A stretch of 32,253 nucleotides of DNA from a bacterium (GTDB taxonomy: Bacteria > Armatimonadota > Chthonomonadetes > Chthonomonadales > CAJBBX01), in contig VFKD01000146.1 of assembly GCA_009885735.1 (NCBI GenBank), forward strand, positions 1 through 32,253. The letters run 5' to 3'. The translations under genes were made by a program, and so were the position numbers. How positions within the stretch are numbered: position 1 is the stretch's first letter; each line of letters opens with the position of its first letter. Shown here in pieces: positions 4,888 to 12,587 of this stretch. Under the pieces are notes generated by a model. It saw only the letters and a list, made by a program, of their open reading frames with translations. It was not told where the DNA came from and made no database searches.

Positions 4888-6042
4888 CTAGGCGAGTGAG
4901 GCGGCGAGGTCGGTCTGCTCCCAGGGGAAGACAGGGTTGCCGAAGTGACCGTTTTTGGCAGTATCGAGGTAGGTGATCTTCGTTGGGTCCAGGAGGCTGA
5001 GCTTCGAGATGATGAAGTAGGGGCGCAGATCCACCGCGCTTCGAAGCCGCTTGCTGATCTCGGAAGGATCGAGCGAGCTAGTTCCGAACGTGTCTACATA
5101 CACGCTCACCGGCTCGGCGACGCCGATAGCATAGGCGAGCTGAATCTCGCACTTTTCCGCAAGTCCTGCCGCCACAACGTTCTTGGCCAGGTAGCGCGCC
5201 ACGTAGGCTGCAGAGCGGTCCACTTTCGACGGATCCTTGCCGCTGAAGGCTCCTCCACCATGACGAGCGTAACCGCCATAGGTGTCCACGATGATCTTGC
5301 GGCCGGTTACACCCGTATCTGCTTGTGGACCACCAATCACAAACTTGCCGGTTGGGTTGATGTGATACTTCACATTGCCGCGGTCGAACTGTGCAAACTC
5401 CCTCAATGCCGGACGAACAACGTGCTCGCGGATGCGGTCCTCAACCTCGGTCTGGCTTACAGCCTCGTCGTGCTGAGCCGAGAACACAATGGTTTCGATG
5501 TACTGCGGCTTGCCATCGACGTAGGCGATGGTAACCTGAGACTTGCCGTCCGGCCTGAATCCAAGCTCCGGATTGGAGCTTCGTAGGTCCGCGTACAGCT
5601 TGGTGAGCCGGTGCGCGATTGTTACCGGCAAAGGCATCAGGCTCTCGGTCTCGTTGCACGCGAAGCCGAACATCATGCCTTGATCCCCGGCGCCCTGGTC
5701 CTCGGGCCTGGTCCTGTCCACGCCTTGGTTGATGTCTGGTGACTGCTTCTGGATTGCCAGCATCACGCCGGTGGTGTGCCCGTCAAAGCCAAAGTCGGTA
5801 TGCACGTAGCCCACATCGCAAATTGTCTTTCGAACGATGTCCGCAATCTCTACATAGGCTTCAGTGGTGAGTTCACCGCCGATCACGGCAAGGCCCCGCG
5901 TGAGGAAAGTCTCGAGCGCAACGCGAGACTTCGGATCCTGCTTCAAGAGCTCATCTAGGATCGCATCGCTAATCTGGTCCGCCAGCTTGTCGGGATGTCC
6001 TTCGGTAACGCTCTCCGAGGTGAAGAGCCTTGTTTCTGCCAT
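4888..6042 (-). CDS. metK: S-adenosylmethionine synthetase
   Basis: Makes S-adenosylmethionine from methionine and ATP in the cytoplasm, in three intertwined MAT domains. The 384-residue length is typical. Signatures seen are [21 protein letters not shown] at the N-terminus with the catalytic His of GHPDK, the [12 protein letters not shown] methionine/ATP loop, and the phosphate-binding [16 protein letters not shown] segment. The C-terminal [28 protein letters not shown] is the standard ending. The chosen ATG (6042) gives the usual METRLF-like start and is preceded by a GGAAGGA Shine-Dalgarno sequence. The frame extends to an ATG at 6120, but that region is the structured leader described separately. 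That leader can form mutually exclusive helices, suggesting control by attenuation. Confidence 0.97.
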
Positions 6043-6065
6043 AGTTTCGTATCCTTCCAGGATAG

Positions 6066-6163
6066 GCACGGCGAGGTTGCGCCGTGCTTGTGCGTCGCAC
6101 CAAAACGCCCCCTTCCGCATGGAAGGAGGCGAGAGCGCCGCTGGGCGGCAAAGTCGTCTCCTT
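6066..6163 (-). promoter_or_regulatory. metK leader with antiterminator/terminator-type structure (candidate riboswitch)
   Basis: On the metK sense strand, AAGGAGACGA (6163-6154) can pair with TCGCCTCCTT (6132-6123) with one mismatch, enclosing GCCGC/GCGGC (6149-6137). The 3' half of that outer stem also belongs to a second helix, GCCTCCTTCC (6130-6121) with GGAAGGGGGC (6116-6107), loop ATGC, followed by GTTTTGG. The second helix looks like an intrinsic terminator and the first like its antiterminator; they cannot coexist. A further perfect 8-base hairpin lies just before the Shine-Dalgarno sequence (arms 6066-6073 and 6080-6087). The SAM-I consensus core is absent and I do not recognise the fold as a known SAM riboswitch. 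Ligand sensing is inference. Confidence 0.5.
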
Positions 6164-6376
6164 ATCTTGCAGAGTACTGCTCGGATTTAGCACCTGCCGC
6201 GCGCACGAAGACGCACGGTGGTTGTTGTGGCATCAACGGGCCGGTCCCTCCGCCACTCTCGATAAGGAAGCATATTGGATTGTTGGAGTGACTCTACCCG
6301 CGCCGCAGCGAAAGTGTCAACAGATTCTGGGCCTTGGCGCGCAGCCGGGTACTCTTGTCTTCAAGAGGGTACTTAC

Positions 6377-6997
6377 TTGGGCTTTGACGAACGCCTATTC
6401 CTAATTCTGAACCGCGGCGCGGCGAACGGCCCGATGGATGCTGTGATGCCAGTCATCACAAACCTTCACCAGCAGAAGTGGTTTTTCGCGGTGATAGCTG
6501 TGGCGGCTGTGGCCGGCATTCTCCGGCACAAGAAGCGCGGATGGGTTGCCGTCATTGCCCTTGTTGTCGCCATCGGTCTTGCTGACTCAGCGTCGACGAG
6601 AATCCTTAAGCCTGTAGTGGGTCGTCCAAGACCCTGTCATGTTGCTTCAGGCGGAAGGTTCGTCGTTCCGGACGTTCGCATTATTGCGGGGGAGAGCTGT
6701 CCGGGTTCGCCGTCCTTCCCGTCGAACCACGCCGCAAACACGATGGCCGCTGCGACCGTGTGTGTTTGGCTGACACGGGGTCGCAAGCGCTGGGCTTGGC
6801 TGCTGCTTCCTGCCGTCATCGGCTACAGTCGTATCTACTTGGGTTACCACTACCCATCGGATGTTCTGGCCGGGTGGCTGCTTGGGTTTGCACTCGCGCT
6901 TTCGGTCGTCTGGGCGGCACGAAGGGTGTTGCCACCTAGCGCAACAATTGTCGGCGACGCAATTTCGGGGAGTACCGAACCACGCACGAGTGGCTAG
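6377..6997 (+). CDS. PAP2-family membrane phosphatase
   Basis: A type 2 phosphatidic acid phosphatase/undecaprenyl-diphosphatase-like integral membrane enzyme that removes phosphate from lipid phosphates. All three motifs are present. Counting from the TTG at 6377, these are KPVVGRPRP (K78, R85-P86), PSFPSNH (H118), and SRIYLGYHYPSD (S151-R152, H158, D162). The N-terminal segment FDERLFLILNRGAANGPMDAVM is the usual family start. The TTG at 6377 puts the start right before it with an AGAGGG Shine-Dalgarno sequence seven bases upstream; an ATG at 6275 would add 34 unlikely residues. Four to six membrane helices are visible. A diverged copy of its 3' end lies at 12971-13101, marking this gene as one border of the accessory slot. 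Confidence 0.88.
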   Translation: MGFDERLFLILNRGAANGPMDAVMPVITNLHQQKWFFAVIAVAAVAGILRHKKRGWVAVIALVVAIGLADSASTRILKPVVGRPRPCHVASGGRFVVPDVRIIAGESCPGSPSFPSNHAANTMAAATVCVWLTRGRKRWAWLLLPAVIGYSRIYLGYHYPSDVLAGWLLGFALALSVVWAARRVLPPSATIVGDAISGSTEPRTSG

Positions 6998-8137: not shown

Positions 8138-10321
8138 ATGGCCGACACCTTCTTCATAGCAGGCGGAACGCTCAGTGCAGCAGCTCCCAGCTACATCGAG
8201 CGTGCTGCCGACCGCCAGCTTCAGGACGCCCTACGCGAGGGCGAGTATTGCTACGTCCTCGACAGTCGGCAGAAGGGCAAGTCCTCGCTCATGGCTCGCG
8301 CTATCGAGCGCCTGCGAAACGACGGCATCGTTTGTGCCAAGCTCGACCTGCAGAGGTTCGGCGCCAATCTCGACCCGGAGCGATGGTACGCAGGGCTCCT
8401 CTCTGCCATCGGCCAGGACCTCGGCCTTCGGGAGGAGATGTTCAGCTATTGGGGCGCGAACCAGACATTCGGTCCGCTGCGTCGCCTGTTGGGTGCGCTC
8501 GAAGAGGTAGTCCTTCCGTGGCTCGGCGAGCGCCGGCTCATCATCTTCATCGACGAGATAGACTATGTTCGCAGCCTGCCGTTCCCCACGGACGAAGTCT
8601 TCGCCGGACTGCGCGAGCTGTACAACCGCCGCGCGGATGACCCCCGCTTTCGGCAGATTGCGTTCTGCCTGCTTGGCGTGGCCACTCCCAGCGACCTCAT
8701 CAAGGACGTGCGAATCACGCCGTTCAATGTGGGCAAACGAATCGAGCTAACTGACTTCACGCTCGATGAGTGCTGTCAGTTGGCGGCAGCGCTCGGTCCG
8801 AGCGGTCAAGCACTGATACGTCGGGCCCACTACTGGACGAATGGCCACCCGTATCTGACGCAGCGCCTGTGTCAGGCTATCCAGGAAGACGGGCGCGTAA
8901 CTACTGCAAAGGGCGTCGACCGAAGCGTCGAGAGCCTCTTCTTCAACGCCAGGGCGCGGGAGGAGGAGCCGAACCTGAGCGACGTGGCGCGGCGCGTGCT
9001 GGAGAGCAACCCCGGCGACCGCTCCAGCGAGGAGTACCGCTCCGCTATCCTGGACCTGCTCGATCAGGTGCGCTCGCGGCGCAGGTCCATTCGCGACGAC
9101 GACACCGATCTGCTAGTCGCGGCGCTCAAGCTCTCGGGAGTCTCCGCTGTGGTGGAGGGCTACCTCTGGATTCGCAACCGCATCTACTACCGCGTGTTCG
9201 ACCAACAGTGGGTGCGCGCGAACCTGCCGGATGCTGAGCTGCAGCGGCAAGGGTCTGCTGCGAGGCGTGCAGCGCTTCGGACGGCGTCGGTTGCGGGAGG
9301 CGTAGTAGTGGCGATGGGTGCCTTAGCCATCTTGGCTCTTTGGCAGAGAAGTGAAGCGATTCAGAGTGGGAACGTGGCAGAATTCAACGAATCCAAAGCC
9401 AATGTTAACGCTACAAAACTTGCGTCGGCACTCGAGACGGTCAAGAAGCAAAGTGCTGATGCCACCCGACTTGCTCAGCAACGCCAGGAAGCACTAACGA
9501 AAGCAAGAGAATATCTGAGCGAGAGTACAATTAATGCAACGCGCCTCATGATCTCGAATAGGAACCTTCAAAAAGCCTCGGCACACTCTAGCTGGCTGGC
9601 AAACAAAGCAAGCCTTGCAGCCAGGAATGAGAAGCAACTACGACTTGATATTCAGAAGGTTGTCAAGCAGTTGAAACTGTCCAGAACTGCTATGAGGATG
9701 GTGGAACGGCAGGTCAATCTCATCATGTTGGCTGTCGCAAGTGAGATTCCGAGCTTGACCCTCAATACACGGATTGGTGACCACATCGATGCCATCGAGT
9801 TCATTTCGCAAGGTAGGCGAGCGCTTGCGAACAAGGATTATTCACTCGCAGAGGAATCATTCGTCAAAGCACTCCTCGTCGATTCCCGAACTGCTAGCGG
9901 TCTTCAAATAGCCTCCGTTCTAAACAGGATCGGCGGCACATTGCTTGCAGCTGATGAGTCCGCGCTTGCGGTGAGCTACTTTTTGAGGGCACTGCCTATC
10001 CTTGAGCGTGATGCTCCTGGATCGTTGGAAGTAGCCACAGTACATGGGAATCTGGGCTACGCTTATGACAGCCTCGGTCAGACTAAGCGAGCACTAGGAC
10101 ATTATGTCAGTGCATTAGCCACTCTTAGAATCAAAGCACCTGGATCGCGAAAACAGGCTGTCATGGAAAGGGCGCTCGGAGGTGTTTTCCACAAGCTAGG
10201 ACGAAAACAGGAGTCAATTATCCACTTAACTAATGCTAATGAGACGTACAAGTCTTTTGGCCTCCAAGCTCTCGGTATAGAAGTTCAAATGAGGTTTGCG
10301 ACAATTTCAGCCCGAATGTAG
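8138..10321 (+). CDS. AAA_35-type NTPase with membrane helix, coiled coil and TPR-like repeats
   Basis: A 727-residue protein. Residues 1-290 are an AAA-like (AAA_35) NTPase: PSYIERAADRQLQDAL, a P-loop region DSRQKGKSSL (42-51) in which the first P-loop Gly is Asp, Walker B LIIFIDEID (134-142), then TPFNVGKRIELTDFT and NGHPYLTQRLCQAI. These last two segments recur in the NTPase at 10596. A single membrane helix follows (about 385-403), then a long Ala/Lys/Glu-rich coiled coil (about 404-540), then TPR-like repeats (about 555-715, e.g. GTLLAADESALAVSYFLRALPIL). From about base 9340 the DNA becomes visibly more AT-rich, so the C-terminal half may have a different origin. The layout suggests an NTP-driven switch with a C-terminal sensor at the membrane; a role in defence or signalling is inference. 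Confidence 0.8.
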   Translation: MADTFFIAGGTLSAAAPSYIERAADRQLQDALREGEYCYVLDSRQKGKSSLMARAIERLRNDGIVCAKLDLQRFGANLDPERWYAGLLSAIGQDLGLREEMFSYWGANQTFGPLRRLLGALEEVVLPWLGERRLIIFIDEIDYVRSLPFPTDEVFAGLRELYNRRADDPRFRQIAFCLLGVATPSDLIKDVRITPFNVGKRIELTDFTLDECCQLAAALGPSGQALIRRAHYWTNGHPYLTQRLCQAIQEDGRVTTAKGVDRSVESLFFNARAREEEPNLSDVARRVLESNPGDRSSEEYRSAILDLLDQVRSRRRSIRDDDTDLLVAALKLSGVSAVVEGYLWIRNRIYYRVFDQQWVRANLPDAELQRQGSAARRAALRTASVAGGVVVAMGALAILALWQRSEAIQSGNVAEFNESKANVNATKLASALETVKKQSADATRLAQQRQEALTKAREYLSESTINATRLMISNRNLQKASAHSSWLANKASLAARNEKQLRLDIQKVVKQLKLSRTAMRMVERQVNLIMLAVASEIPSLTLNTRIGDHIDAIEFISQGRRALANKDYSLAEESFVKALLVDSRTASGLQIASVLNRIGGTLLAADESALAVSYFLRALPILERDAPGSLEVATVHGNLGYAYDSLGQTKRALGHYVSALATLRIKAPGSRKQAVMERALGGVFHKLGRKQESIIHLTNANETYKSFGLQALGIEVQMRFATISARM

Positions 10322-10595: not shown

Positions 10596-12587
10596 ATGAA
10601 CGCAGAAATCGCCTTCGTCGTCGCGATGGACCGTGTCCGGTCCAGCCCACAGCCCATGGAGCGAAAGGCAGCCATGAGCAGTGAGTTGACCGAGGCTATT
10701 GGCGCGTGTCCCGCTTACCTCGCCGCCAAAGAGGTCGGTCAGGTGATCACTCTCGACTCCGGCGATGGCGCCGCTCTCGTCTTCTTCGGCGATCCTCTCT
10801 CCGCAATGCATGCGGCTCTGGAAGTGCAGCGCGCGGTCAACTATCCGGGCTGCCACTCGCCACTGCGCGTCGGCGTCCATACAGGGCCGGTCATTCGGCG
10901 CACGGACGTAGCGGGCAAGCCGAATGTGGATGGTCATGGGATCGATATGGCGTTTCGCGCCATGGCTGTGGCAGACGGATCTGCGGTCGTCGTCACCGAG
11001 GCCTACGCGGCCATTTTGGTGGCGTTCGAGGAGTGGGCAGCCCGACTCAACGAGCCCGAGGACCACCTGGTGAAGCACGACCGCGTGAGTGTCTGCCGGG
11101 TGCTGGACGCTGCGCAGGAGCCTAAAGCAGGCGACGGCCTACGAGTTTCCATCGTCTACAAGCGTCATGCCCAGCCGGACGGCGCTCTGTTGGCGAAGCT
11201 TGAGGCTAGGCTGCGGGCAGGCGGATTCAGGGTGTTTGTGGATCGCCACATGTCTATTGGGGTGGAGTGGGCGCACGAGATCGAGCGTCAGCTTCGCGCG
11301 TCAGACGCAGTGATTGCGCTGCTCTCGGATCGCGCGGGCGACAGCGAGATGATGTTGTATGAACTGCAGACGGCCTGCGATGAGCGCGACAAGAGCGGCA
11401 AGCCAGCCATCCTTCCCGTGCGTGTCGGCAGTGACGCGCCGCTCGGGGGTGAGATTGGCCGGCTCGTCTCGCGGTACCACTACTTCCACTGGTCACGTTC
11501 CGGCGACGATGAGCGTCTGTGGAGCGAGATCGATGCGGCGCTGCGCAAGCCGCCTGACCCGCCTGCGTCGCTTGTCGCGCCCATCGAGCAGCCTGGTGGA
11601 GCGGTGCCGCTTGACTCACCTTACTATATCGAGCGTTCAACCGACGCGCAGTTCGCGGAGGCCATCGCTCGGCGTGACAGCATTGTTCTGTTGAAGGGCG
11701 CGCGCCAGATGGGCAAGACCTCGCTGTTAGCGCGCGGTCTGAACGCCGGCCGCGCGCGCGGCTGGCAGATCGTCCTCACCGACTTCCAGACGTTCAGCAG
11801 TTCGCAGCTCGAGACCGACGAGCGCCTCTATCGCTCGCTCATGCACGCCTTCCGCACGCAGCTCAAACTGGACGTCGATCTGGAGTGGAACGACTGGCTC
11901 GGCGCGAACACGAACCTGGAGCACTTCATCCAGACGCGCGTGCTGCCGCAGGTGGATGGGCACCTCATCTGGGCGATGGATGAGGCGGATCGGCTGTTCA
12001 GCCGGCCCTACGCGGGTGACTTCTTCGGGTTGGTGCGGTCTTGGCACAACCGCCGCCCCCTGGAGCCGCAGGGGTCTTGGCAGCGAATGACCATGGCGAT
12101 ATCCTATGCCACCGAGGCGCATCTGTTCATTACGGACCTGAACCAGTCACCGTTCAATGTGGGCACTCGTCTCGGCCTGACCGATTTTTCGGTGGATCAG
12201 GTCCGGGCGCTCAACGACCTGTATGGCAAGGCGCTGCGAACGGAGGAGGAGGTCAGGCAGTTCTTCGATCTGCTGAACGGCCAGCCGTACCTAACGCGCC
12301 GTGCACTGGACGAGCTTGTCCGCGATGGACACTCGCTTGCTCAAGTGATTGAGTTGGCCGATCACGACGAGGGAATCTTTGGTGACCACCTGAGGCGCAT
12401 CATGGTGGCGCTGTCCAACGATTCGACGCTTGCAACGGCGGTCCTGACGCTTCTCGGCGGCAAGTCCATCGAAAGCGAGCCCTTCTATCGGCTGCGCGCC
12501 GGCGGCGTAATTCGGGGGGACTCCGTAGCAACTGCGACGTTCCGGTGCCGCATCTACGAGACCTACTTGCGCAGGCACCTTAGCTGA
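10596..12587 (+). CDS. fusion of cyclase-like domain, TIR domain and AAA_35-type NTPase
   Basis: A 663-residue three-domain protein. Residues 1-172 are a class III cyclase-like domain: IAFVVAMDRVRSS (D12), LDSGDGAALVFF (D57), LRVGVHTGPV, and NVDGHGIDMAFRAM, where the usual transition-state Asn is Asp and the Arg remains. Residues 182-300 are a TIR domain (TIR_2 type): RVSIVYKRH, LRAGGFRVFVDRHMSIGVEW, SDAVIALLSDRAG, and MMLYELQTA, with E256 at the position of the catalytic Glu of NAD-cleaving TIRs. Residues 335-640 are an AAA_35 NTPase: YYIERSTDAQFAEAI, Walker A GARQMGKTS (368-376), Walker B LIWAMDEAD, SPFNVGTRLGLTDFS, LNGQPYLTRRAL. The NTPase is related to the upstream one. The plan resembles prokaryotic STAND-type conflict proteins, in which the NTPase gates a toxic TIR. 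It has no membrane segment. The target and trigger are unknown. Confidence 0.85.
   Translation: MNAEIAFVVAMDRVRSSPQPMERKAAMSSELTEAIGACPAYLAAKEVGQVITLDSGDGAALVFFGDPLSAMHAALEVQRAVNYPGCHSPLRVGVHTGPVIRRTDVAGKPNVDGHGIDMAFRAMAVADGSAVVVTEAYAAILVAFEEWAARLNEPEDHLVKHDRVSVCRVLDAAQEPKAGDGLRVSIVYKRHAQPDGALLAKLEARLRAGGFRVFVDRHMSIGVEWAHEIERQLRASDAVIALLSDRAGDSEMMLYELQTACDERDKSGKPAILPVRVGSDAPLGGEIGRLVSRYHYFHWSRSGDDERLWSEIDAALRKPPDPPASLVAPIEQPGGAVPLDSPYYIERSTDAQFAEAIARRDSIVLLKGARQMGKTSLLARGLNAGRARGWQIVLTDFQTFSSSQLETDERLYRSLMHAFRTQLKLDVDLEWNDWLGANTNLEHFIQTRVLPQVDGHLIWAMDEADRLFSRPYAGDFFGLVRSWHNRRPLEPQGSWQRMTMAISYATEAHLFITDLNQSPFNVGTRLGLTDFSVDQVRALNDLYGKALRTEEEVRQFFDLLNGQPYLTRRALDELVRDGHSLAQVIELADHDEGIFGDHLRRIMVALSNDSTLATAVLTLLGGKSIESEPFYRLRAGGVIRGDSVATATFRCRIYETYLRRHLS

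Follow-up and report, generated by a model that had tools for sequence, protein, structure and literature searches.

In transcriptional members of the SAM-I (S-box) riboswitch family, a terminator/antiterminator platform that engages the P1 3′ strand is typical, but not required. The same platform has been reported for many SAM-I riboswitches (PMC10853860), and there are also SAM-I variants with a changed J1/2 and P3 loop that bind spermidine and can precede metK (PMC10853860). A literature search found no paper on SAM riboswitches in Armatimonadetes. We analysed the metK leader in a 32,253-nucleotide stretch of DNA from this phylum (the whole stretch is called the window), and we regard it as almost certain that this leader is a canonical SAM-I riboswitch whose expression platform is of the transcription-terminating type.

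The SAM-I aptamer in front of metK

The metK gene (4888-6042; Pfam PF00438, PF02772 and PF02773) encodes an S-adenosylmethionine synthetase of 384 aa and, like its leader, is on the reverse strand, so that leader features are given here from higher to lower coordinates. An Rfam search of the 32-kb window gave a match to RF00162 (SAM-I, S box) at 6268-6159, with a score of 70.5 bits (E 9e-15) relative to a gathering score (cut-off) of 44.4 bits, and the cmscan alignment covered model positions 1-108 of 108, comprising P1 to P4. This was the sole Rfam match in the window, a permissive Rfam scan of 6000-6400 yielded no further match, and the window's genome contains one SAM-I copy, before metK. 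An earlier note, which had marked the interval 6163-6066, held that the SAM-I core was absent and that the first of two competing structures was much smaller than known SAM riboswitches. The first statement was wrong and the second is not confirmed: the aptamer is of full length and lies mostly just outside the marked interval, which consists of the expression platform alone, and it was missed.

In the alignment, P1 is formed by TCCTTATC (6268-6261) and GATAAGGA (6166-6159) with standard pairs at 8 of 8 positions. The conserved segments of the ligand pocket, whose contacts with SAM are known from the crystal structure, are all kept in the window: AGAG (J1/2), CAACC and GGUG (P3), and UAUC/GAUA (P1). 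Inspection of the alignment by eye identified a pseudoknot of three pairs between L2 (CGG) and J3/4 (CCG), for which one relative (G047) has UGG and CCA, a compensating change. One P3 pair of the window is A.C in place of G-C, as in most of the order and in family f9 of the phylum. The model score, the pocket segments, the pseudoknot, the location before metK and the terminator/antiterminator platform described below are all those of a SAM-I member.

These data bear on the possibility that the aptamer is derived from SAM-I but has a changed ligand, as in the spermidine class, which includes members that stand before metK. Such variants exist, one of them in front of the Oceanobacillus damuensis metK gene (PMC10853860), but they are altered in J1/2 and in the internal loop of P3, whereas the window keeps AGAG, CAACC and GGUG and its score clearly exceeds the SAM-I cut-off. 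Furthermore, no spermidine variant is known outside a few Gram-positive genera and metagenomes, and we consider this explanation extremely unlikely for the window.

Upstream of the aptamer, a pattern scan found a sigma-70-like promoter, TTGACA-18-TAGAGT, at 6320-6291 (a consensus match only), with 10 of 12 matches where 0.2 such sites were expected by chance. If this promoter-like site is used, the RNA would start some 15 bases before P1.

Alternative helices between the aptamer and metK

The segment AAGGAGACGA (6163-6154) starts within the P1 3′ strand, the two overlapping strands together occupying 6166-6154, and it is complementary to TCGCCTCCTT (6132-6123) at 9 of 10 positions, with one A.C mismatch; this helix is the antiterminator. 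The second helix, GCCTCCTTCC/ATGC/GGAAGGGGGC (6130-6107), is a stem of 10 pairs with a 4-base loop, as had been described, and it reaches 11 pairs with C6131-G6106, followed by TTTTGG. The whole element (6131-6100) has the form of an intrinsic terminator, with a computed hairpin energy of -20.6 kcal/mol, and a hairpin is found at the same position in relatives. The antiterminator 3′ arm (6132-6123) is mostly also the terminator 5′ arm, and because the two helices share 6131-6123 they are mutually exclusive. Therefore, the competition between helices proposed in the earlier note is confirmed, as 6163-6154 with 6132-6123 against the terminator at 6131-6106.

The fold of 6158-6043 had an energy of -56.8 kcal/mol, compared to -40.3 ± 3.7 kcal/mol for dinucleotide shuffles (z -4.5). 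For an RNA ending at 6121, the calculated energies were -56.2 kcal/mol for the P1 state and -55.8 kcal/mol for the antiterminator state, with the ligand and the pseudoknot not counted. For the full leader, P1 plus terminator was slightly favoured (-76.2 kcal/mol) over the antiterminator (-75.3 kcal/mol). Such nearly equal calculated energies of the P1 and antiterminator states would suit a switch that is tipped by a ligand.

By analogy with the SAM-I family, from which we infer SAM as the ligand, off as the direction of its effect, and termination itself, the switch would operate as follows. The nascent leader RNA would fold the aptamer (6268-6159), and SAM, when bound, would hold P1 closed and make the P1 3′ strand unavailable for downstream pairing. 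With P1 closed, an intrinsic terminator would form from 6131-6121 and 6116-6106, halting RNA polymerase near 6102. At low SAM, P1 would open, and part of its 3′ strand together with the next five bases (6163-6154) would capture 6132-6123, in which case the terminator would not form and metK would be transcribed.

The U tract of the window's terminator is short (TTTTGG), and weak U tracts are general in the window's family (f1; for example, CATGTG in G008), whereas those of a sister family (f2) are long. Because U tracts are weak or absent in the window and in its family relatives, termination may be incomplete or factor-aided.

Between the terminator and the ribosome-binding site there is an 8-pair hairpin, GCACGGCG-CAACCT-CGCCGTGC (6087-6066), which had also been pointed out previously and is indeed present upstream of the metK Shine-Dalgarno sequence, GGAAGGA (6058-6052). 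The leaders of relatives have no clear counterpart of this hairpin; a conserved role for it was therefore rejected, and it is probably outside the switch. In the window, the Shine-Dalgarno sequence can itself fold into a small hairpin (6065-6050), which is also possible in a few relatives (G009, G010 and G208); most relatives cannot form one, and it was rejected as a common feature. On sequence comparison, both hairpins are regarded as incidental. The metK start is the ATG at 6042. Another ATG, in the terminator loop (6120), lies 26 codons farther upstream in the metK reading frame, and an ORF caller would place the metK start there instead of at 6042.

We considered whether translation might be the main target of the SAM-I aptamer, with control exerted by the two hairpins close to the ribosome-binding site (6087-6066 and 6065-6050). 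The ability of the Shine-Dalgarno sequence to sit in a small hairpin agrees with this, as does the existence of two families of the phylum (f8 and f9) with leaders that lack a T-tailed hairpin. However, neither hairpin is conserved in the window's family, and the element that covaries is the terminator, which makes primary control of translation highly unlikely. A dual-layer device, in which SAM-I control of transcription would be combined with translational control through the same two hairpins, is also very unlikely.

Elsewhere in the window, two adjacent genes on the forward strand (8138-10321 and 10596-12587) both encode AAA_35-domain proteins, of which one also carries TPR repeats and the other a TIR domain; these are possibly signalling or defence genes.

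Distribution and covariation among relatives

SAM-I was found in 11 of the 12 genomes of the window's family and in 52 of the 291 genomes of the phylum Armatimonadota. It precedes a bacterial-type metK at 43 loci, that of the window included. Of the genomes of the order that gave no SAM-I match, five were searched for metK, and none was found in their assemblies; for one of them (G005), the absence of metK was obtained again in a repeat search with positive controls (G010, G011 and G037) in the same run. Because metK was also not found in these assemblies, the five genomes are no counter-examples.

The check named in the earlier note, covariation in the metK leaders of relatives, was carried out on 25 leaders of the order, and compensating changes were found, within a SAM-I riboswitch. 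Antiterminator pair 4, formed by the base after GATAAG in P1 and its partner in the terminator arm, is G-C in 7 leaders, A-U in 16 and G-U in 2, and is broken in none. Pair 5 is G-C in 24 of the 25 leaders and A-U in the window alone, with both sides changed. The corresponding P1 pair is broken in 4 of the 25 leaders, which indicates that, at this position, the antiterminator constrains the P1 3′ strand more than P1 itself does. A further comparison used the 20 leaders in which a T-tailed hairpin is clear: the mean pairing energy between P1 3′ strand and terminator arm was -11.1 kcal/mol when both came from one leader and -8.6 kcal/mol when partners were swapped; 0 of 20,000 permutations matched the observed sum, in a test that is not corrected for relatedness. 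The compensating changes are, in our reading of the alignments, the stronger evidence.

The earlier note had suggested that 6163-6066 could by itself be a small SAM sensor of a new type, or else an attenuator bound by a protein. Of this interpretation, the mutually exclusive antiterminator and terminator hold, and the compensating changes favour the SAM-sensing role. However, the competing helices do not require a new sensor, as the antiterminator 5′ arm is part of P1 in a full SAM-I aptamer, covariation ties that arm to the terminator, and nothing of the platform beyond antiterminator and terminator looks conserved in relatives. With a canonical RF00162 match directly upstream, of a kind shared by the metK leaders of the order, the small sensor was rejected, and we assign a vanishingly small probability to a new sensor or attenuator of this kind.

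Several other leaders of the phylum differ from the canonical arrangement. The metK SAM-I leaders of families f8 (L127, L129-L131, L113 and L116) and f9 (L100, L102, L107, L108 and L110) have no T-tailed hairpin, and by eye they contain a CCUCUU- or CUUCUU-like stretch for which the Shine-Dalgarno sequence and the P1 3′ strand are alternative pairing partners. This suggests that a translational platform replaces the terminator. In families f12 and f13 (L133-L137), SAM-I precedes an archaeal-type AdoMet synthetase (PF01941, 491 bits in the one tested), not bacterial MetK, and the L2 loop of the aptamer also differs. It follows that the riboswitch tracks the function and not the homologous gene.

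Three genomes of one genus in the window's family (G002, G003 and G004) contain unusual aptamer arrays (L096, 2602-2488, 2447-2341 and 1607-1501 on the reverse strand; related arrays in L097 and L095/L147). In these genomes a SAM-I/IV aptamer is followed in tandem by a terminator-like hairpin and then by a SAM-I aptamer, and the tandem stands before a gene, which in G002 encodes a YbjN domain. G002 and G004 have a third SAM-I-like aptamer, which ends 7 bases before an ORF for an SNF2-type helicase and has an altered core, with GGCAUCC for GGCAACC, ACGAG for AAGAG and GUGCCCC for GUGCCAA. The YbjN-domain and SNF2-type helicase genes are odd targets for SAM control, and the ligand has perhaps changed.

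Comparison with known SAM riboswitches

The structure marked in the earlier note represents ordinary metK regulation, and it illustrates that an expression platform viewed without its upstream aptamer can pass for a new regulator. The riboswitch is new solely as a sequence and its kind is already known; what is gained is that the well-documented S-box leader, its covarying terminator platform included, is extended to one Armatimonadota order.

The SAM-I/IV riboswitch (RF01725) shares the clan and the ligand, but the window's match is to RF00162, and a match to RF01725 was absent from the window's genome. The spermidine riboswitch has the same overall fold and the same terminator/antiterminator platform, and it is set apart by the changes in its J1/2 and P3 core, as described in PMC10853860, which are not present in the window. 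The SAM-I riboswitch (RF00162) has in common with the window P1-P4, J1/2 AGAG, P3 CAACC/GGUG, the L2-J3/4 pseudoknot complementarity, the control of metK, and a P1 3′ strand that competes for the terminator 5′ arm. Relative to it, the window has a P3 A.C pair and a short terminator U tract, and there is no essential difference.
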